Assembly: GCA_030615745.1 (NCBI GenBank)
Contig: JAUWYR010000044.1
Location: 1 to 20,963, forward strand
Reading direction: 5' to 3'
Length of the DNA: 20,963 bases
From: Candidatus Zixiibacteriota bacterium
GTDB taxonomy: Bacteria > Zixibacteria > MSB-5A5 > SM23-73-2
The translations under genes and the position numbers were made by a program. Numbering within the stretch: the first letter of the stretch is position 1; every line of letters begins with the position of its first letter. Shown here one piece after another: positions 3,249 to 18,115 of the stretch. A model generated the notes under the pieces. That model had not been told where the DNA came from. It made no database searches and worked only from the letters and a program-made list of their open reading frames with translations.

Positions 3249-4043
3249 TTATTCTTTAATCTTAAATTTCTCATCCAACTTTTTCATCTTCTCAACAATC
3301 CCGCCGTACTCAAGCTCAGAGTAAGGAAGCATTGCGCATCCGGAAAACCCTTGACGCCTTAAATCTATAGCCTTTTGAGAAACCTGGTCTCTTACATGAT
3401 CCCAGAAAGGATGGTCAAAGCAATCCGCTGGCTCGGTGAACTTCCCCTCTCTCATTGAAAATGCCTGAGCAGTCACAACCGGTGGTCCATCAAAAAAGGA
3501 GATAGTGGTATTAGCTTTCGACGGCATCAAAGGTCCGTTATGGCTACCTCTCATAAATCCAGCCACAAAATGTCCGATGTTGTAAGGAGAAAGAACCTCA
3601 CCTATAGCTGGAAATCCACCCTGGACTCGCACCAGTGCAACAGGGTCATCCTTTCCTGTGTATTTCCCTGCGATATTGTGCAGTTTATAGAGCAAAAGGA
3701 CTACGATATCGCAAATATCCTGAGGAGACGAAAGCATTATTATCCTGTCAGCCTCGGTGTGGGCAACGTCCATTATAACGAACTTGAATCCTGCTTCCAT
3801 TTTGGGGAAAAGCATAAGTCCAGCATTATATATAGGGTCTGCAAATGCCAAATATAATGGTAGATTGTAAGCGCCTGACTCAGTTTTATCAGCGGCGAAG
3901 AAGATAAATGACTCATTTGGTCTTTCCTCAAACTTGATCTCAGCCACAGCAGGACCCATACCCTTGACATTTCCTGAGAAAGCATCTTTTAAAAGATCCT
4001 GCCCAGTTCCGTACAAATGTTGCATTTTTCTAACCTCCGTCAC
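3249..4043 (-). pseudogene. Fructose-1,6-bisphosphate aldolase/phosphatase, C-terminal part (copy B)
   Basis: This 264-codon frame matches the archaeal-type bifunctional FBP aldolase/phosphatase (class V FBPase, gluconeogenesis) from about residue 82 to the end. Recognisable pieces are LYGTGQDLLKDAFSGN, ADKTESGAYNLPLYLAFADP, and AGKYTGKDDPV with the Schiff-base Lys and metal-binding Asp pair. Then come MRGSHNGPLMP and the C-terminal LEYGG with the catalytic Tyr. The N-terminal metal ligands (the Asp and His near residues 11-18 and the Asp pair near 52) are absent. From memory of the family, about 27 residues are also missing between DIVVLLL and YKLHNIAGKY. The GTG at 4043 has no proper ribosome site. 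A working enzyme is unlikely from this frame alone. Confidence 0.8.
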
Positions 4044-4202
4044 CTAATTTCCTAACAGAAATTGTATAATAATAAAAATAAGAAAAGCCAGAGCGTAAGG
4101 AAGCCCAATCTCTATTTCTTTCAACCGCAAGCCGCCGTTTGCATAATGCTCAATCTTATATTTAAATATAAGGCCTTTAAATATATTCTCTGGTAACTTC
4201 AT
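4044..4202 (-). CDS. Possible 52-residue single-span membrane protein
   Basis: The ATG at 4202 is preceded by AAGGAGG at seven to eight bases, the strongest ribosome site in this area. The product is 52 residues: a basic/polar first half (MKLPENIFKGLIFKYKIEHY), then LRLKEIEIG and one membrane segment (LPYALAFLIFIIIQFLLGN) ending in TAG. It replaces codons about 28-81 of the second aldolase/phosphatase remnant and shows no likeness to that enzyme in any frame I read. It may be a genuine small gene inserted in the pseudogene, or chance. I do not recognise a family. Confidence 0.35.
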   Translation of the reverse strand: MKLPENIFKGLIFKYKIEHYANGGLRLKEIEIGLPYALAFLIFIIIQFLLGN

Positions 4203-4282
4203 AGCTTTTCCTCCTTGCTTGGTTTGATATGACCTTCGATACTGCCGATGTCTTCTTTGATTATATTTTAGGTTATTTTCAT
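4200..4282 (-). pseudogene. Second FBP aldolase/phosphatase N-terminus with a stop at codon 5 (copy B)
   Basis: On the minus strand from ATG at 4282 the frame reads MKIT, stop, then NIIKEDIGSIEGHIKPS. It is plainly the same N-terminus as at 4757 (MKIT-LSIIKTDIGSIGGHIQPS). By eye 52 of the first 66 bases match, and many differences are silent third-base changes. Codon 5 is TAA (4268-4270) against TTA in the other copy. The ribosome-site region upstream is also similar. The likeness stops near codon 23. Its spacing to the C-terminal part at 4016 is 266 bases against 267 in the other copy, so this start and the frame at 3249-4043 probably belong to one dead gene. Confidence 0.75.
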
Positions 4283-4429
4283 TTTCAATCCTTCCACTTA
4301 TTTTTTTATTAATTCTATATCCATAATTGCTACGTGAAAAATTTTCACCTTTATATTTTCCTCTTATGTATTCAATCACGAACCTCTGATTGTCTCGTAA
4401 AAGTGCGCTGATATCATAGAGGATAAACC

Positions 4430-4757
4430 CCACGTTTCTCTCATTACATAGGAAAGTATTCTTTAAAAGGTCCTGCCCTGCTCCATAAAGCCCTTGGATT
4501 TTTGCAACCTCAGTTCCCTTAATGAAAGCGTCCCAGGCTAACTTGTGAATGTCAGAGTCGAGCTTTCCCTTTTGATGGGACATAAGAATAGCAACGTCAT
4601 CCCCGGTCGAACTTGTGTAAAAATCCTTAATCAGACCTTTGCCCAGCCCTTCTGTTTCAACATGCTCCTGCACAGCCTCTTTCAATTTACGGCTGGGCTG
4701 GATATGACCCCCAATACTACCAATGTCTGTCTTGATTATACTTAAGGTAATTTTCAT
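4430..4757 (-). pseudogene. FBP aldolase/phosphatase N-terminal fragment (copy A)
   Basis: The frame opening at ATG 4757 (AAGGATT upstream) encodes the first 105 or so residues of the archaeal-type FBP aldolase/phosphatase. It has the Asp and His metal ligands (KTDIGSIGGH), STGDDVAILMSH with the Asp pair, HKLAWDAF and LYGAGQDLLKNTF. After about 4440 the likeness ends and the open frame drifts through unrelated sequence into the second start region and the small membrane ORF, ending at 4044. The full enzyme is about 360-380 residues, so this copy lacks roughly 70 percent. It retains the residues that the fragment at 3249-4043 lacks. A split functional enzyme is conceivable but less likely than decay. 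Confidence 0.8.
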
Positions 4758-7959: not shown

Positions 7960-9333
7960 ATGAAAAAAAATCTTATAAAAGATTTAGAAAACTTGGTAGG
8001 CAAAGATAAAATTTTCTCACATATTGAAGACCGCTTTTGCTATGCTTACGATGCTACCAACAACTTCTATTTGCCCGATGCTGTGGTGATTCCAAAAAGC
8101 ACAGAGGATGTAGTTAAAGTTGTTAGATATGCTAATCAGAACAAAATCCCTGTGGTATCGAGAGGATTAGGATCTGGATACACCGGAGGGTCTGTTCCGA
8201 TAAAAGGAGGAATAGTTGTTAGCCTCGAGCAGATGAATAAAATCCTGGAGATTAACAAGGAAAAAAAATATGGTATAGTTGAATCAGGTGTTATTGCATC
8301 TGACTTTGCGGATGAGGTAAAAAAGGAAGGTCTATACTATCCACCTGACCCCACCAGCCTGGAATACTCTACCTTGGGTGGAAATGTAGCTGAGTGCGCT
8401 GGTGGATTAAGAGGCAGAAAATATGGGACAACTAAAAACTATGTTTTAGGATTAGAATTTGTCTTATCCGAAGGTGAGGTTATAAAAACAGGTCTTCTGT
8501 CTTCTCTTGATGACGATTTATATGATCTTGAGGGGCTTCTTATCGCCTCAGAGGGAACTTTAGGTATTATCACTAAGATAGCCTTCAGGCTTACCCCTCT
8601 GCCATCCTATAGTGAAACTGTGCTCGCAGGATTTGACCGGATGGAGGATGCAGCTCAGGTCGTTTCAGATATCACTAAGGCTGGGATTGTGCCATCTGCA
8701 CTGGAGTTCATCGATGGGGACACTCTCGATTGTGTGCTTGAGTATATCTCAGTTGATTTCGTTCAGAAATCAGACGCGGTTTTGCTCATAGAACCAGAAG
8801 GTGAAAAAGATGAGGTTCAAAAGGAGATGGAAATGGTTAGAAAGATATGTGAAAAGAACAATGCGAAAAGTATTAAGTCAGCTGAAACAGAGGATGAAAA
8901 AGAAAAACTATGGGAGGTAAGAAGAGCCTCCTCAGGCGCTCTTCTTCGCTTGGCACCTACAAAGGTTAATGAGGACGTCTGTGTTCCACCCAGCCAGTTG
9001 CCTAATCTGGTTAAGGGCTTAAAAAAGATAGGTCAGGATTATAGAGTCACTATAAACACATTTGGACACGCAGGAGATGGAAATCTGCACGTTAATATAA
9101 TGTGTGATAGAACAAACTCTGAGCAGATGGAAAGGGTAGATCAGGCAGTAGAAAAACTTTTCGATTTAACCTTGAAATTAGGTGGAACCTTATCCGGTGA
9201 GCACGGAATCGGAATAACCAAATCTAAATTTCTTGAAAATGAGGTCGGAAAATTAGGGATTGAGTTGATGAAAAAAATAAAGAAAGCCTTTGACCCCCAG
9301 GGAATATTAAACCCAGGAAAGATATTTATATAA
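7960..9333 (+). CDS. glcD: FAD-linked D-lactate/glycolate dehydrogenase, GlcD type
   Basis: 457 residues, typical for the GlcD/D-lactate dehydrogenase family, which oxidises D-2-hydroxyacids and passes electrons to quinone or a partner iron-sulfur protein. The N-terminal FAD-binding domain (about 38-215) shows VVSRGLGSGYTGGSVP and PPDPTSLEYSTLGGNVAE. The C-terminal FAD-oxidase domain has GHAGDGNLHVNI (near 370) and GGTLSGEHGIGITK (near 410), both diagnostic. There is no C-terminal iron-sulfur extension and no GlcF partner in the window. The ATG at 7960 lacks a close ribosome site (AAGAGG lies over 20 bases upstream), so translation may depend on the structured 140-base spacer before it. Context with larA and ldh favours D-lactate as substrate. 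Confidence 0.9.
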   Translation: MKKNLIKDLENLVGKDKIFSHIEDRFCYAYDATNNFYLPDAVVIPKSTEDVVKVVRYANQNKIPVVSRGLGSGYTGGSVPIKGGIVVSLEQMNKILEINKEKKYGIVESGVIASDFADEVKKEGLYYPPDPTSLEYSTLGGNVAECAGGLRGRKYGTTKNYVLGLEFVLSEGEVIKTGLLSSLDDDLYDLEGLLIASEGTLGIITKIAFRLTPLPSYSETVLAGFDRMEDAAQVVSDITKAGIVPSALEFIDGDTLDCVLEYISVDFVQKSDAVLLIEPEGEKDEVQKEMEMVRKICEKNNAKSIKSAETEDEKEKLWEVRRASSGALLRLAPTKVNEDVCVPPSQLPNLVKGLKKIGQDYRVTINTFGHAGDGNLHVNIMCDRTNSEQMERVDQAVEKLFDLTLKLGGTLSGEHGIGITKSKFLENEVGKLGIELMKKIKKAFDPQGILNPGKIFI

Positions 9334-9343
9334 AAGCAAAAGA

Positions 9344-9369
9344 TGTAGCGTCGGGCTTCATGCCCGACG
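9344..9369 (+). repeat. TGTAG leader plus 8-base-pair hairpin
   Basis: TGTAG (9344-9348) is followed by CGTCGGGC (9349-9356), loop TTCAT, GCCCGACG (9362-9369). It lies just after the glcD stop but has only a short A run afterwards, so termination on the plus strand is uncertain. Confidence 0.65.
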
Positions 9370-9376
9370 TTAAAAA

Positions 9377-9425
9377 GGAATGCAAAAACTTGTTTTTGCA
9401 AAGCAATCCATATGGATTGCACTCC
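9377..9425. repeat. Composite double palindrome
   Basis: TGCAAAAAC-TT-GTTTTTGCA (9381-9400) and the perfect 18-base palindrome GCAATCCAT-ATGGATTGC (9403-9420) sit side by side. The edges GGAATGCA and TGCACTCC pair with one G-U, so an outer stem can close over both. The minus strand starts this unit with GGAGTG, the leader also seen at 9623 and 9730. Confidence 0.6.
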
Positions 9426-9450
9426 AAAATAAAAACTTCTTTTATGATAA

Positions 9451-9540
9451 TGTAGGGGAGCCCCTTGTGGACTCCCTTAGGACGGGAGGGGACCCCGATA
9501 AATCGGGATTTCGCCAGACTCAACAAGCCCCTCCCCTACA
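9451..9540. repeat. 90-base element with 20-base imperfect terminal inverted repeats
   Basis: TGTAGGGGAG (9451-9460) and CTCCCCTACA (9531-9540) are perfect complements, and the inverted repeat extends to 20 bases with 16 matches. Inside is CCCGAT-AA-ATCGGG (9494-9507). It is miniature-transposon-like in build, but no coding partner or clear target duplication is seen. Confidence 0.55.
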
Positions 9541-9556
9541 CAGTCTCCTTTTACTG

Positions 9557-9619
9557 ATAGCCCATGTTGCCCCCAACCTGGGTAAAAAAAATCCCACCTT
9601 GAGGGCAAGGTGGGAATAC
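9557..9619 (-). repeat. Repeated terminator module, copy 1
   Basis: Matches 19242-19313 along its length: a CCCATGTTG...CAAC-TGGG hairpin, an A-rich run, then a CCCACCTTG/CAAGGTGGG hairpin. Read on the minus strand it is a strong hairpin, a T run, then a second hairpin. Both copies stand downstream of minus-strand genes. Confidence 0.7.
9584..9614 (-). terminator. Rho-independent terminator after coaD
   Basis: On the minus strand CCCACCTTG (9614-9606), loop CCCT, CAAGGTGGG (9601-9593) is followed by A and eight T. It is a 9-base-pair GC-rich stem with a proper T tract, about 210 bases beyond the coaD stop, and probably ends the murB-to-coaD operon. Confidence 0.7.
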
Positions 9620-9620
9620 T

Positions 9621-9679
9621 CTGGAGTGTCAAGCTTCAGCTTGACTTCTTTCGCAGTGTGGGGAGTTTCCTCCCGACAC
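9621..9679. repeat. GGAGTG-leader hairpin and neighbouring 10-base hairpin
   Basis: CTGGAGT then GTCAAGCT (9628-9635), loop TC, AGCTTGAC (9638-9645). Next, GTGTGGGGAG (9656-9665), loop TTTC, CTCCCGACAC (9670-9679), with one mismatch. The minus-strand loop is GAAA, a stable tetraloop. Confidence 0.55.
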
Positions 9680-9687
9680 CAAACGAA

Positions 9688-9711
9688 TTGTCAGGAGGTA
9701 ACTCCTGACAA
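9688..9711. repeat. Perfect 10-base-pair hairpin with GTAA loop
   Basis: TTGTCAGGAG (9688-9697), GTAA, CTCCTGACAA (9702-9711). GTAA is a GNRA-type tetraloop on the plus strand. Confidence 0.65.
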
Positions 9712-9727
9712 CATTTGAAAAAATCTT

Positions 9728-9747
9728 CTGGAGTGTAAAGCTTTACA
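9728..9747. repeat. GGAGTG-leader palindrome, second copy of leader
   Basis: CTGGAG at 9728 leads into the perfect palindrome TGTAAAG-CTTTACA (9734-9747). The 16 bases from 9728 match those from 9621 at 15 positions, after which the stems differ. Confidence 0.6.
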
Positions 9748-9762
9748 GATAAATCCCAGTTC

Positions 9763-9813
9763 AACGGGGATGTTATCATCCCCGTTGTTTTCTCTTGTGG
9801 ATGATAACATCCC
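9763..9813. repeat. Hairpin with competing downstream partner
   Basis: AACGGGGATG (9763-9772), TTAT, CATCCCCGTT (9777-9786) is a perfect 10-base-pair hairpin followed by GTTTTCTCTT, so it could end plus-strand transcription. GGGATGTTATCATCC (9767-9781) is also the exact complement of GGATGATAACATCCC (9799-9813), a longer alternative pairing. Confidence 0.6.
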
Positions 9814-9825
9814 TATCTTATAATT

Positions 9826-10314
9826 TCACGCAAACCCGAACTTTTTCTTCAACTCCCTCTTCACTACCTCAGGCACGAACTCAGAAATATCCCCGTTAAA
9901 ACGGGCGATGTCTTTGATCAAAGATGAACTCAAATAGGTATACTTCTCTGAGGGCGTCAGAAAAAACGTCTCGCAGGAAGGAGCGAGATTACGGTTCATC
10001 AATGCCATCTGAAACTCGTATTCGAAATCGGAAACCGCTCTTAAACCTCGCAGGATCGAACAGGCGCCGATTTTTTTCACAAGATCAGCTAAAAGCCCTT
10101 TGAATCTCAAAACCTCTACCTTATCCATATCCTTTAAAGTCTCTTTAACCATCTTTTCCCTTTGTTCCATTGTGAAAAGACATTCCCTTTCCTTCTCAAC
10201 GTTATCAGCTATTGCCACCACAATCTTGTCGAAAATACTTAAGGCTCTTTTTATCAAGTCTATGTGCCCATTGGTTATTGGGTCAAAACTTCCAGGATAA
10301 ACAGCTATTTTCAT
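9826..10314 (-). CDS. coaD: Phosphopantetheine adenylyltransferase (CoaD)
   Basis: Transfers AMP from ATP to 4'-phosphopantetheine, the fourth step of coenzyme A synthesis, in the cytoplasm. 162 residues, the normal length. Motifs: YPGSFDPITNGHIDLI (6-21) with the nucleotidyltransferase T-x-G-H site, ILRGLRAVSDFEYEFQMALMNR in the middle (adenine and pantetheine site), and YLSSSLIKDIA (the ISSS-type motif). The ATG at 10314 has AAAAAAGGAG upstream, and that ribosome site lies inside the end of rsmD; the rsmD stop is two bases before this ATG, so translation is probably coupled. It is the last gene of the minus-strand run and is followed by hairpins and a terminator at 9584-9614. Confidence 0.97.
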   Translation of the reverse strand: MKIAVYPGSFDPITNGHIDLIKRALSIFDKIVVAIADNVEKERECLFTMEQREKMVKETLKDMDKVEVLRFKGLLADLVKKIGACSILRGLRAVSDFEYEFQMALMNRNLAPSCETFFLTPSEKYTYLSSSLIKDIARFNGDISEFVPEVVKRELKKKFGFA

Positions 10315-12187: not shown

Positions 12188-15100
12188 TTAAAACTTGAAG
12201 TAAATCCAGATACCCAATCCCCGAGTATGTCGCTTCAGATCAGTCTTTTTGTCATGATAATCTATCCAGGTGAACTTCAAACCACCATTGACCTGATTTG
12301 AGAAACTATAACCAGCATTTCCTTGTATGGTTAAAGTGTTTTGATCGTTTTTTGTATTAAAACCATGAGGTGGAATTGCGCTTTCTTCCTTCGAAACCTT
12401 TTTGGAAATATCGAGATTTAAAGTGACGCTGCTTCTGAATTTGATCTTTTTTAATAATGGAATCTTTAATCCATAAGGTGCTGAAAAAGAATATTTTGTG
12501 TTAAGGCTGTAGGAGGTCTCATAGTTTTTAGTTGTGGTATTTGACCCGCCCGTTTGTCTTAAATCTTTATCCTCGGTGATGGTTTTGTCTATTTTTATAG
12601 TTGTATTTATTCCATTTTTCCAGTTCAAAGTCAAAGATACTAATGGATAAAATCTAAGATATGTTTTTTTCTTAATTGGAGATTTTGTCCTTGCCTCCTC
12701 TTCTTTATCTATTTTTTTTGAAAAGCTTGTGCTAAAAGAAGAGGTTGAGATGAATTTCTGGAATAACTTAATTCTTTCAACGTTGCTTACTCTCAAGGTG
12801 AGATCTGGGAAAGTTTGAGTTATCTTCCTGGTTGGAGTTGTGGATGACGAGGCTCCTCCAATCTGCTTGAAATAACTGAAGCTAAGTTTTACACCTCGAT
12901 AGAGACTAACACCGCTTTTAGCACTGTAACTTTTGTTGGTGCTCGAAGCATCTCGAATTCCCTCAAGTGAGCCGGAAATTAAAGGAACTCCGATCTTATC
13001 GGTTAATCCAAACTGATAGGCTAAAGAAGGACGGAAAAATAGTCCGCTCACAGTAGACGTTGTTTTACGGGTATGATTGAAAACTGGAGAATCAATTTTT
13101 TTCATCAAACCGCTAAACAGATTAAAAGGCTTAAATAATCCCTTTTCGGTTTTAAGGCTTCCAAAAAGCTTGTTCAGATTGAGGGTGAAATCGAACTTCC
13201 TTGTGTTGGAGTTCTGGACCGTGAGAGTATAATTTTTCTGGGGATCTGTTTTTTCATTATAAGTTGACGTAAATGAAAATTTGTTTGTAAGAAAACCAAG
13301 GATTTGAGGAGAATAATCGAATTTAAAATTCTGAGACCTTCTCAATTCTATTCCAAGCTTTGCCTCTTTAGGGCTAAGTGAGAATTTCAAATCTTCGTCT
13401 TTTCTTATATCTCTGGTTGTATTAAAACTATAGTTAACATTTGAATTATTTAAAGGGTTCATGGAAAGGTTTACATTTCCAATAAAATCACGGTTATACT
13501 TCGAAGTTATATTCCCTCCACTATTTAAAGAATAAGATTTGCTTCCCTTCACATCTCCACCGACTTTAAAAGTTTTTGGTAAAAAACTTAGTTGGAGCTG
13601 GGTAAAATATTTGGGTATAAAGAAAAGGGTTGACCAACCAAAAGGTTTTACTGAGATTTGTTTTCCCGGTGAAAGATCATAGCTTGCTCCAAACCCATAA
13701 TTCTCAGTCCAGGAAACAGGCACATTGGGAGAGGTGCTCTCAGTCTTTTGATAAGTTATCCGGTTAATGTTAAGCCTTTTTAAAGTCAGTTTTAAAAACC
13801 AATTGTCTGTTTTTTTATTAAACCTCGGACCAAATCCAATCGATTTTCTGACAGACTTAGTCTGGTAATCTTTTCTTCTTTGTTCTGGTAATTCAATATC
13901 CGAGCCAGTCTTGAACTTCGGCAACGAAAGATCCTCTGACCAGCTTAATGAGAGAGGCAAAGAGGTCTGCCAGGAGGGTGGTATAAATTTATGTAAACTT
14001 ATAGTTCCACTAATTCCTAAAGAAGAACGATAATCTTTACTTATATACCCCTTTTTCTCCATATCTGTTAAACTTTTGAATTCGGAATCATATCTGGAAA
14101 AACTTATATTCCCACCGGTAACGAGATCAGCTAAGTTAAATGAAATGGAGCCTTGTGTAGCAAAACCTGGTTTTTTGCGCACATCTGCCACCCCAAGTTC
14201 ATCCACCCAGATCTCGCCATAAGCAGGATTTGAATCTTTATTGATTATACCCATAGCAAAATAACTTACCTTGGAAAGAGTTGGGTTCCCTCTGATTCTA
14301 TAAGGCATCTGAGAGATTGTATCTGAACCTTCAGGCATCTCGAGCTTGAGCACAGTTATTTTGTCGAAATCGATCTCCATCTCATTCCAACCAGGTAAAA
14401 CTTCAGAGAAGTATTCGTAATAGTTGGTGGAATCAGTTCCCATCTTGAAGAAAAACTCTAGATCAGAAATATTCTCAGGTCCGTGGATCCACAACTTAAT
14501 CTTTTCATAATTAGTGTAATTCTCAGCTTTATGCCTCAAGATCCTTTCAGCTATTCCCATATGATTGGGTTTAAGATTCTCAAACCTTAAAACCAAAGAC
14601 TGCTCTTTTGCTCGCACCTTGGTTGTTCGATCCAAGACACCTGCAACACCTGGAGGAGGGTCATAACCGAGATTTTCATGGGTGTTGATAACGTAGATCT
14701 CGAATGACTCATCAGTTTCAATTGAATCATCAGCAAAGCTGTCAGCCTTAAAAACACCCAACGGCTCCCATCTATTACCTACTAGCTGAATTGAGGCAAG
14801 TTGGATCACACAGGAATCTTTATGACCAGAATAGCTAATCCACATTCTGGCAAACTGAATATTATTCCAATCAGGTGAACCCGCCACAGAATCTGGAAGA
14901 TCGAGTGGAAGTCTATAAAGTCTCCAACCATTGCTATAGGTGCCCTTCACATACTTAGATTCAATAGCTGTATCAGCTGATAGATCAACTGTAAACTCAA
15001 AATAGTTGTTAGTCTGATCTAAACTTCCGTTGTAGTTTATATCCTCAGTATCAGGGCGCCTCCCCCGATCAGGATCATCTCTGTTCCCCTCAGTGCCGCT

Positions 15101-18100
15101 AATATGGGTGTAATCCTTTCTTTGGTCCCTTGTGTCACTATACCTCCAATCATCGCCCGAAGGGTCATCGTAGTCAGGGAAACTCTCTTTTTCCTCAGAG
15201 TTAAACATTCCATCCAGTCCAGTGTCTTCATCTTCATCCAAAATCCCATCCCTCTGTCCAAGCCTCAATTTATCCTCTGTATCAAAATTTCCATCTGAAT
15301 CTATATCCTCGGAGATCTGACCCAGATCAATATGTAATTTTGCGCCATCCCCTCTCACCCATATCTCTAAAAATCTTGCTCTGGTCTGATCATAGTTTCC
15401 ATAAGAAAATGCCCTCATCACACCGTTGCAAGAGCTTTCAGGTTGATTTGGGTCAAATTTTCCTGTGGCGCTATCTATTGGTGAGTGAGATCTTTTTGGA
15501 AAGAAAACCATACTAAGCACATTGGTTCTATCCTCACCTCTGCGAGCCTCCTTATTAGGCCAGATCTCCTGAATTAGAACTTGCTCATAGGGATTATACC
15601 AATACATCCTTCCCCTCTGCCATAAAGAGGTATCCGGAAGGGAGGAGAGAGTCCAAACTCCTCTTCTTATGCTCAGATCTGTGTATTCCAATGCTCCCTC
15701 AAAATCGTCAATAAATGCTTTGTTTCTCACATTTGGATTAGGTAAAGAGCCCGCCATCTGAGCGTTTACTCTAATATTAGAAGGACTTTCGGCTTCAACT
15801 AAGGGGAGCGCATCCACTAATTGGGTCAAAATAGGTGGAGACAAAGAAAAGGAAAAATCGGTTCCCCAGACAAAATTCTTCACTGGCTCTTCACCCACCC
15901 TTGGCTTCTCATCCTGAGACCTTTCAGATTTATATAAAGCGATAGCACCAATTCTTGTGTTTTCACCAAGGCTATAATCTCCTTTTAAACCGAAAAGGCT
16001 TTTTTTCTCTGGCATGAAAAAAGGCTCATACTCAAAATCAACAGTGATCTGAGCATTTGGATCTAAAGCCTCATTTGTCAAAAATCTTATCTGACCAAGC
16101 TCGTAGTAAATATCATAATCTTCACCTTTTGTAAGCTTACGCCCATTTAAAGTAACAACCTCAGACCCCTCAATGATATTGGTCTGACCTAAAGAATACT
16201 CTGTTTTTCTTGTTGTTGACTCAACATATATATAATACTTGCTTGCCTGACTTATTTCTCTGTCGTTATTACTTGTATATATTTCTCTAACTTGAGGAGC
16301 AAGAGTATCCCCTGGTCCTGTGGTAAAGCTTCGGTCTGTTGCGAAGGGATGTCTATCAGGAAAGACCAAATATCCGCGCACAAAATCTATCTGGCGGATG
16401 TCCAGAATTCCATCTGCTCCAGGATTTCCTCTGGTATCTATTTGGTCTAAACCCAGAATCTCGATATATCTTTTCCCCTCTTGATAGTTTTTGTCCTCGT
16501 TAATTCTCTCCGCACCTTTAACCCCCTTATAAATATCTATGACCAGACCATCAGGATCAATGTTTCTTGTTCTCAAAGAGTAGACATTTCTCCACTCATA
16601 CTCCCAGGTGATATGCTTGGGCGAAGAGATAGATGGCTTTAAAAGCTTTAAAAGAAAAGATGTGTCCTGGTCTGTGCTTCCGGTGTTACGGTGCTCCAAG
16701 TTCCCAACTGTGTGAGTATCGCCATTAGCGCGCAGAACCTGGTAGTAGACAGCTAGGACATCATATTTACCAAGACTTGTGGATAATTGTATATATGGTA
16801 AAGTTGTCCCAATCAAGCCCGAACCTAATGTCAGTGTATCCTTTGTCCGATGCACAAAATATTGGTCAGATTCCAAGGGTTTAAATCTTTTATATTCGAA
16901 CTCCGCTCCACTTGTGTCGCACTCGCATTTTCCAAAAGTAGTGTCACAATTATCAGGGTTAACCACTGCCAAGCCATGGCGATAATCGGAGTTGGAATTA
17001 ATACTATTATTAGATACATAAACCGCGATATTGACAATGCTGTCTCCATCTTGAAAATCATTGGGCAACCATTTTATTTTTTCATATAAGTTCGGGTCGC
17101 ATAATGAAGGTTCATATAAGGATTGCTCGAAGCCCAAAAAATAGAAGGTCCTTGCAATGTAGTTATAATCTCTAATAGGGTCCATTTCTTTGGTCTCTGC
17201 ACCTGCTGCAAACTCAGACTTTTTTGTAGCCCCTTTCTCCTGGCTGGTTATCAAAGTCAAATCGAACCCTCCTATCTTTGCCTGAGCTTTTATACCAAAA
17301 AGTCCCTGGACCTTCTCGCTATAACCAACAAGTCCACTATTAATTGCTAAGCTCACGTTTCCTGCCTCGATACTTTGAATTATCTCATCCTCATCACCAG
17401 TGTATTTCAAATGTAATCTATTGGAAAGGTCGGTCTCCCTTTTAGAGTCCTGGTCTACCTGAACTGAGATTTTGCTACCTATGGTTCCTGAGATTGTAAA
17501 TTTAGATTGTTGCTCCATTTTAAGTGAGGGAAATTTAGTTTGCTTTGAGGTGGCTGTGCTTTTAATTCCCTCCTCCCAGGTGGAGGCGCCTGAGAACTCA
17601 ATTTTTCGATAGCCCGAAACCTTAAGCCCTGGTCCTCCTTCCCCTATTATTTTCGAGACCAAAGGTGGAAATTTAATAGGAATCTCAAACTCAAAAGGTC
17701 CACGAGATCTTCTCTGACCACCCTTTGTTGTAAAGGAATTCAGGTTTGACCCGAAGCTTGAATCAAGTTTAGTTTTACTATTTTCAAGAACGTATTTATC
17801 CAAATCCATGCTAAAATCAGAAATTGTGGAGAAAGAACCGATCTTTCCCTCTAAAAAGACTCTGCGATTATCATAGTCAATCCCTACACTTTTTGTAAAA
17901 GTGAACTTGGATTTGAGCAAGGGTAAAAATGGGTTTGATATAGATAAGCCTTTTTCTTTGGGGGGATTAAAAATAAACCAGCGCATCGATTTGACCGATA
18001 AATCGGTCCTTAAAGCCTGGGCTATTAAGGGGGTTTTAGCTAAAAAACAAACCGCTAAGGATAATGCAAAAATAAGTCTTTTAGCGGCTTTTAAACTTCG

Positions 18101-18115
18101 CCAAGAGTGAAGCAT
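12188..18115 (-). CDS. sprA: SprA-family type IX secretion translocon / gliding motility outer-membrane protein
   Basis: 1975 residues, the largest gene here. SprA (Sov) forms the giant 36-strand outer-membrane barrel through which type IX cargo leaves the cell; it is also needed for gliding in some Bacteroidota. The start MLHSWRSLKAAKRLIFALS gives a signal peptide to about residue 33-35. The N-terminal region has the repeated SprA-type segments (FEFEIPIKFPPLVSKIIGEG, KFTISGTIGSKISVQVDQDS, IIQSIEAGNVSLAINSGLVG). Near 935-1025 is an Asp/Gly-rich stretch with DSDGNFDTED and DTGLDGMFNSEE loops, plausible calcium sites. The rest alternates as beta strands and ends WIYFKF, a typical barrel C-terminus. 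Bacteroidota members are usually 2300-2500 residues, so this is a shorter form. No other secretion component is in the window. AGAGGTG precedes the ATG; an in-frame stop upstream fixes it. Confidence 0.92.
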   Translation of the reverse strand: MLHSWRSLKAAKRLIFALSLAVCFLAKTPLIAQALRTDLSVKSMRWFIFNPPKEKGLSISNPFLPLLKSKFTFTKSVGIDYDNRRVFLEGKIGSFSTISDFSMDLDKYVLENSKTKLDSSFGSNLNSFTTKGGQRRSRGPFEFEIPIKFPPLVSKIIGEGGPGLKVSGYRKIEFSGASTWEEGIKSTATSKQTKFPSLKMEQQSKFTISGTIGSKISVQVDQDSKRETDLSNRLHLKYTGDEDEIIQSIEAGNVSLAINSGLVGYSEKVQGLFGIKAQAKIGGFDLTLITSQEKGATKKSEFAAGAETKEMDPIRDYNYIARTFYFLGFEQSLYEPSLCDPNLYEKIKWLPNDFQDGDSIVNIAVYVSNNSINSNSDYRHGLAVVNPDNCDTTFGKCECDTSGAEFEYKRFKPLESDQYFVHRTKDTLTLGSGLIGTTLPYIQLSTSLGKYDVLAVYYQVLRANGDTHTVGNLEHRNTGSTDQDTSFLLKLLKPSISSPKHITWEYEWRNVYSLRTRNIDPDGLVIDIYKGVKGAERINEDKNYQEGKRYIEILGLDQIDTRGNPGADGILDIRQIDFVRGYLVFPDRHPFATDRSFTTGPGDTLAPQVREIYTSNNDREISQASKYYIYVESTTRKTEYSLGQTNIIEGSEVVTLNGRKLTKGEDYDIYYELGQIRFLTNEALDPNAQITVDFEYEPFFMPEKKSLFGLKGDYSLGENTRIGAIALYKSERSQDEKPRVGEEPVKNFVWGTDFSFSLSPPILTQLVDALPLVEAESPSNIRVNAQMAGSLPNPNVRNKAFIDDFEGALEYTDLSIRRGVWTLSSLPDTSLWQRGRMYWYNPYEQVLIQEIWPNKEARRGEDRTNVLSMVFFPKRSHSPIDSATGKFDPNQPESSCNGVMRAFSYGNYDQTRARFLEIWVRGDGAKLHIDLGQISEDIDSDGNFDTEDKLRLGQRDGILDEDEDTGLDGMFNSEEKESFPDYDDPSGDDWRYSDTRDQRKDYTHISGTEGNRDDPDRGRRPDTEDINYNGSLDQTNNYFEFTVDLSADTAIESKYVKGTYSNGWRLYRLPLDLPDSVAGSPDWNNIQFARMWISYSGHKDSCVIQLASIQLVGNRWEPLGVFKADSFADDSIETDESFEIYVINTHENLGYDPPPGVAGVLDRTTKVRAKEQSLVLRFENLKPNHMGIAERILRHKAENYTNYEKIKLWIHGPENISDLEFFFKMGTDSTNYYEYFSEVLPGWNEMEIDFDKITVLKLEMPEGSDTISQMPYRIRGNPTLSKVSYFAMGIINKDSNPAYGEIWVDELGVADVRKKPGFATQGSISFNLADLVTGGNISFSRYDSEFKSLTDMEKKGYISKDYRSSLGISGTISLHKFIPPSWQTSLPLSLSWSEDLSLPKFKTGSDIELPEQRRKDYQTKSVRKSIGFGPRFNKKTDNWFLKLTLKRLNINRITYQKTESTSPNVPVSWTENYGFGASYDLSPGKQISVKPFGWSTLFFIPKYFTQLQLSFLPKTFKVGGDVKGSKSYSLNSGGNITSKYNRDFIGNVNLSMNPLNNSNVNYSFNTTRDIRKDEDLKFSLSPKEAKLGIELRRSQNFKFDYSPQILGFLTNKFSFTSTYNEKTDPQKNYTLTVQNSNTRKFDFTLNLNKLFGSLKTEKGLFKPFNLFSGLMKKIDSPVFNHTRKTTSTVSGLFFRPSLAYQFGLTDKIGVPLISGSLEGIRDASSTNKSYSAKSGVSLYRGVKLSFSYFKQIGGASSSTTPTRKITQTFPDLTLRVSNVERIKLFQKFISTSSFSTSFSKKIDKEEEARTKSPIKKKTYLRFYPLVSLTLNWKNGINTTIKIDKTITEDKDLRQTGGSNTTTKNYETSYSLNTKYSFSAPYGLKIPLLKKIKFRSSVTLNLDISKKVSKEESAIPPHGFNTKNDQNTLTIQGNAGYSFSNQVNGGLKFTWIDYHDKKTDLKRHTRGLGIWIYFKF

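Follow-up and report, generated by a model that had tools for sequence, protein, structure and literature searches.

REP elements are among the commonest repeats of bacteria, i.e., short DNA hairpins that are thought to be copied around the genome by RAYT enzymes. It is an open question in the field how REPs spread and by what means an enzyme selects the set that it acts on. By published definition, a REP combines a conserved 5' tetranucleotide GT[A/G]G with a palindrome 'with variable base composition' (PMC3686654), and several REP classes with different stems commonly share one genome (PMC3686654; PMC6006769; PMC3733652). The palindrome cluster described here resembles the GTAG REPs, BIMEs, REPINs and REPtrons (Nunvar 2010, 2013; Di Nocera 2013; Corneloup 2021) in that a perfect hairpin of 7-10 bp with a short loop has a tetranucleotide at its foot, copies are dispersed between genes with inverted neighbours, clusters and several stem classes per genome, and, as in REPtrons, a RAYT gene is flanked by inverted copies. 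It differs in that GGAG and GTTG occur as leaders in addition to GT[A/G]G, that its mosaics mix leader classes and that its host lineage is uncultured.

Three further described systems are relevant for the leaders. The TnpA-Y1 subclass 2.8 (PMC6006769) shows the signature NHYH, W[YH], YIHYNP, which resembles the NHYH, W[YWFH], YI..NP of the RAYT clade associated with GGAG (see below). Subclass 2.8 was reported from Cyanobacteria only in that sample (8 sequences) and with GT[AG]G REPs, whereas GGAG units flank the genes of the clade described here. TnpA-Y1 class 3 with its CnGA foot (PMC6006769) is a precedent for a non-GT[A/G]G leader in a different RAYT class, but both its leader and its Y-motif (YV[VI]..EQ, not YI..NP) are different. 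The idea of other leaders is thus not wholly new. CGTC-tagged repeats (PMC3733652) are likewise leader-tagged palindromes, and CGTC follows GTAG in unit 1 of the cluster; here, however, CGTC is paired stem, while it is an unpaired tag in the published repeats, which are without associated transposase. A GGAG leader is not mentioned in the open-access papers on REPs or RAYTs that were searched.

The cluster lies in a 20,963-nt stretch (the window) of the genome of a Candidatus Zixiibacteriota bacterium (G000; 2.28 Mb, 74 contigs). It fills the 492 bases (9334-9825) between a glcD-like gene (7960-9333, plus strand; TIGR00387 match with a score under the curated cut-off), which stops at the cluster, and the convergent coaD (9826-10314, minus strand; TIGR01510). 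Here, eight hairpins pair perfectly over 7 bp or more, 7 of them over at least 8 bp; in 200 dinucleotide shuffles of the region, hairpins of 7 bp or more number 0.275 on average, with a maximum of 3. About 13 palindromes become readable once one mismatch or a long loop is tolerated. No Rfam RNA family matches at curated score within the window. A 112-aa ORF (9380-9718, plus strand) crosses the palindromes and is most likely spurious. We consider it very probable that the cluster is a BIME-like mosaic of REP units of at least three classes between the 3' ends of convergent genes, copied by RAYTs whose clades each read their own guide.

A previous sequence-only reading of the window had reported this cluster, which is real given the shuffles, and the leaders TGTAG (9344-9348, 9451-9455) and GGAGTG (9623-9628 and 9730-9735 on the plus strand, 9425-9420 on the minus strand), all of which are in place. 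Their identity needs to be refined: TGTAG holds GTAG, i.e., the standard REP guide, and GGAGTG is GGAG plus TG, of which the G (sometimes the T) is already paired stem. The reading had also set the cluster apart from REPs because these would keep their stem sequence. This contrast fails since REPs, as defined in the literature, already have stems that vary (PMC3686654); given this and the several classes per genome, the cluster is a set of REP classes and not something other than REPs. Its statement that the stems differ completely was too strong as well, i.e., of the GGAG stems, GTCAAGCT at 9628 and TGTAAAG at 9734, the latter from a shortened GTAAAGCT unit, are one base pair apart in their shared part, and the first G-C pair of the stem is common to all GGAG units. 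It is by a GGAG or GTTG leader, not by variable stems, that units deviate from the published definition, a point that the sequence-only reading had not singled out. A variable-composition palindrome beside a leader and many dispersed, mainly intergenic copies are found, and the GTAG units at 9345, 9452 and 9539 (minus strand) carry the defining GT[A/G]G tetranucleotide. The GGAG and GTTG units do not, and we therefore call them variant, RAYT-associated classes rather than canonical REPs.

The left half of the cluster is made up of five units. Unit 1 (9345-9369, plus strand; leader GTAG at 9345-9348, stem CGTCGGGC, loop TTCAT) belongs to class GTAG-CGTC, which is also found at L012 17905, L026 10769 and L031 15114. 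Unit 2 (9377-9400, plus strand; stem TGCAAAAAC, loop TT) is led by GGAA, a mutated GGAG, and is present with the unmutated leader at L017, L027 and L012. Unit 3 (9403-9424) lies on the minus strand with leader GGAG (9424-9421) plus T and palindrome GCAATCCAT/ATGGATTGC. Unit 4 (9452-9476, plus strand) has a GTAG leader, the stem GGGAGCCC with one A-C mismatch and loop CTTGT, and represents class GTAG-GGGAG. Unit 5 (9484-9539, minus strand) has leader GTAG at 9539-9536 and stem GGGAGGGG; a 36-nt stretch with a second hairpin (CCCGATAAATCGGG) replaces the usual 5-nt loop.

The right half starts with a degenerate palindrome CCCATGTTGCCCCCAACCTGGG (9561-9582, plus strand), of which an undamaged, GTAGC-led copy exists at L016 17684, and a 10-bp hairpin TCCCACCTTG...CAAGGTGGGA (9592-9615, minus strand), after which eight T follow on that strand. 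Two GGAG-led units on the plus strand, namely 9623-9645 (GGAG plus T, stem as given above, loop TC) and 9730-9747 (shortened palindrome TGTAAAGCTTTACA; common form GTAAAGCT tc AGCTTTAC), enclose two minus-strand units of GTTG type. The first of these (9656-9679) shows a degenerate leader TTTG and the stem GTGTCGGGAG with one mismatch; its relatives flank the RAYTs L184, L197 and L205. The second (9688-9712; GTTG plus TCAGGAG, loop TTAC) shares an identical 22-mer with L027 at 7347 and 9888. The inverted doublet of palindrome GGATGATAACATCC at 9762-9813 (members 9762-9787 and 9799-9813) is a different, fixed-stem repeat beside the variable-stem ones: GGATGATAACATCC has 50 exact copies genome-wide, frequently in inverted pairs with a spacing of about 30 bases, and no constant leader was seen among the copies compared.

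Leader usage was evaluated in stretches covering about 630 kb of the genome. The first sample (381 kb, window included) was picked partly around TCTGGAGTG sites and thus overstates GGAG; among its 272 intergenic hairpins, the top 5' neighbours were GTAG (50) and GAGT, the latter nearly always as GGAGT (29). The second sample (249 kb) was picked without regard to leader-palindrome sites and contains 144 intergenic hairpins compared to 32.8 in shuffles. Here, the excess of leader-palindrome units over shuffled intergenic DNA that the sequence-only reading had proposed to test for was found to be strong, with 37 hairpins following GTAG (shuffled mean 0.35), 5 following GGAG (0.7) and 7 following GTTG (0.7). 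Genome-wide, GGAGTGTCAAGCTT, taken for the unit at 9623-9645, occurs with at most 2 mismatches at 97 places and its reversed control at 12; the number of GGAG units in the genome is about 100. Relatives of the same order are rich in the GGAG sequence class as well, e.g., G002 with 161 occurrences vs. 23 for the control; the class shows no excess over the control in most of the taxonomic class.

Units of the window are found elsewhere joined in the same order, and entire units are present or missing at several loci. In L012 and L027, for instance, unit 2 runs straight into unit 4; the window, L026 and L017 have the inverted GGAG unit 9403-9424 in between. Unit 5 comes in two forms, i.e., with a 5-nt loop (L012, L027) or with the 36-nt insert bearing another hairpin; the long form recurs at L026 10595-10683 with 91% identity.

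Next to leader and joining, we studied the pairing of the arms. Sites were chosen by leader and first stem bases, ignoring palindromicity. For class GTAG-GTCG, 93% of the free positions are paired in register and at most 56% when slid; respective in-register values are 89% for GTAG-CGTC, 68% for GTAG-GGGAG and 59% for GTAG-GCAC, with 8-56% across classes for registers slid by 1-3 bases. For all GGAGTG sites, chance sites included, 42% are paired in register vs. 24-28% slid, and 38 GGAG units show at least 6 of 7 free pairs compared to 1 in the control register. Changes on both sides are seen in the GGAG class at position 3 (A-T to C-G) and position 6 (G-C to C-G to A-T). Thus, within classes the arms change in pairs and the foot of the stem is retained, which bears out the view of the sequence-only reading that leader plus pairing is what is shared and that arms have been rewritten in pairs.

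Such paired changes could also stem from template-switch correction of imperfect palindromes in replication rather than from selection by RAYTs. Quasi-palindrome correction is a known mutational process; it fits the paired changes observed and needs no enzyme-specific selection. It leaves, however, the conserved leaders, the dispersal and the RAYT flanks unexplained. We consider it an unlikely cause, albeit one that is compatible with a RAYT-copied mosaic. For the latter, studies of perfect-palindrome REPs found that pairing is needed and the loop matters, while most stem letters matter little, and that the guide sets the cleavage site (PMC8266576). Paired drift would thereby be explained, with no new principle needed. 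In a RAYT-copied mosaic, each unit is a perfect hairpin with GTAG, GGAG or GTTG as guide tetranucleotide at its foot; it would be bound single-stranded by RAYT (TnpA-REP) HuH endonucleases, with the guide choosing the cleavage site. The RAYTs probably copy the units into intergenic DNA, where they would pile up end to end, and copying would select for guide, loop and pairing over most stem letters, such that the arms drift in pairs. Different RAYT clades would read different guides.

RAYT homologs are present in 56 of the 59 genomes searched, G000 included. The latter contains three RAYT genes above the NF047646 cut-off (145, 103 and 128 bits; cut-off 80), of which two have leader-tagged hairpins on their flanks, in line with the RAYT-type gene the sequence-only reading proposed to look for. 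The assignment as RAYTs follows from matches to the REP-associated tyrosine transposase model (for L206 of the GGAG clade with 106 bits) and the HuH and YI..NP motifs; RAYT1 also matches 4er8 (E 3e-27). RAYT1 (C17) has GTAG-GTCAGGAGC on both sides in inverted orientation, and RAYT2 (C25) is flanked by GTTG-GTGCTGGATT, i.e., both classes show the arrangement of a REPtron (a RAYT flanked by copies of the same class) in this genome. RAYT3 shows no REP flanks here; its ortholog in a sister genome is flanked by GTAG-GTCGAGATT, that is, by the GTAG-GTCG class common in G000. For the GGAG class, this arrangement is found only in relatives (L185, L194, L198, L206 and L276; L213 and L229 by a relaxed reading). 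In a tree of 42 proteins, the four same-order RAYTs flanked by GGAG hairpins (L185, L194, L198, L206) form one clade (support 100/99), and in a larger tree 7/7 GGAG-flanked RAYTs share one clade (SH-aLRT 96), which also holds the unlabelled long-branch L226. In the genomes searched, GTTG-led palindromes flank a separate RAYT clade. When plasmids were searched for relatives of the GGAG-clade RAYT, be they cyanobacterial or other, only distant transposases (22.7-33.3% identity) were returned.

The search of this assembly for a RAYT of the GGAG type was negative despite about 100 GGAG units, such that these are either orphans or their gene lies in an assembly gap. The lack would also fit a mobilisation of the GGAG units by a resident GTAG or GTTG RAYT, i.e., a leader-RAYT match that is not strict, as would the GGAG units near RAYT1 at +70 and +123. 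The hairpins that directly flank RAYT1 are nevertheless GTAG-GTCAGGAGC on both sides, and a GGAG-clade RAYT flanked by GGAG-GTCAGCCT exists in the sister genome. We consider mobilisation by a resident enzyme unlikely. That the palindromes are unrelated intrinsic terminators ending two convergent genes is highly improbable and rejected as a general explanation: although the site is intergenic between convergent genes, shows six terminator-like matches vs. 1.1 in shuffles and has the eight T of 9592-9615 on the coaD side, most units miss a T tract, and shared leaders, dispersed leader-tagged copies (97 vs. 12; 50 exact) and modular joining are not properties of terminators. Single units may double as such. 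Only 9592-9615 is clearly terminator-like, and even this hairpin is a repeated module (also in L016, L018 and L019); it is plausibly the intrinsic terminator of coaD, which would make it a co-opted repeat.

Within the RAYT-copied mosaic, we compared leaders with the residues of the enzymes, numbered through alignment to 4er8. Residues discussed for GTAG contact in E. coli TnpA-REP include Q95, D/E100, H101 and R104 (PMC6006769; PMC8266576). Q95 and R104 are retained in 42/42 readable GTAG RAYTs. In all 7 GGAG RAYTs, position 95 is taken by an aromatic residue or by His, and one residue next to it is deleted. In the 3 GTTG RAYTs, position 95 is E, K or M and position 104 is Y. That is, neither clade keeps Q95, and the GTTG clade has lost R104 as well. 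In a second set of 80 further RAYT loci, leaders were called by a rule without any leader list; where a locus had several automatic candidates, the label was picked by reading, as were some training labels. This yielded one automatic GGAG call (L276), the protein of which bears the GGAG motif. L213 and L229 encode GGAG-motif proteins without an automatic GGAG call; the relaxed reading gave GGAG palindromes on both sides and, as it was done knowing the expectation, is weaker evidence. The change of leader is thus matched, by clade, by a change of the enzyme at leader-contact residues, a correlation that rests on few independent changes since GGAG and GTTG each arose about once on the tree. The altered residues may take part in reading the guide. 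More tentatively, with somewhat less than even confidence, we propose a RAYT guide code in which the tetranucleotide (GTAG, GGAG, GTTG; perhaps also GTGC, GTAC, GTCG and ATAG in other families of the class) would be predictable from a few residues near 95-104, such that every clade would be a single-strand endonuclease that is orthogonal to the others, takes its programme from a four-base leader and has a REP population of its own.

New, compared to the described systems, is that some REP-like units are led by GGAG or GTTG and that the matching RAYTs are altered at leader-touching residues. This matched change is a natural experiment on what RAYTs read, and it suggests that searches limited to GT[A/G]G would miss whole REP classes.

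Some side observations were made. RAYTs of other families in the class (L217, L254, L255, L260, L265, L268, L278, L281, L288, L290) appear flanked by GGTA-, GTGC-, GTCG-, GTAC- or ATAG-led hairpins and show yet other residues at the guide-contact positions. Elsewhere in the window, two adjacent ORFs at 3249-4757 (minus strand) resemble, by eye, pieces of one fructose-1,6-bisphosphatase-like gene with an internal part repeated, possibly a broken or rearranged gene copy. The 1975-aa protein encoded at 12188-18115 (minus strand) would be a pointer to the lineage of the host in that it resembles, also by eye, SprA of the FCB group.
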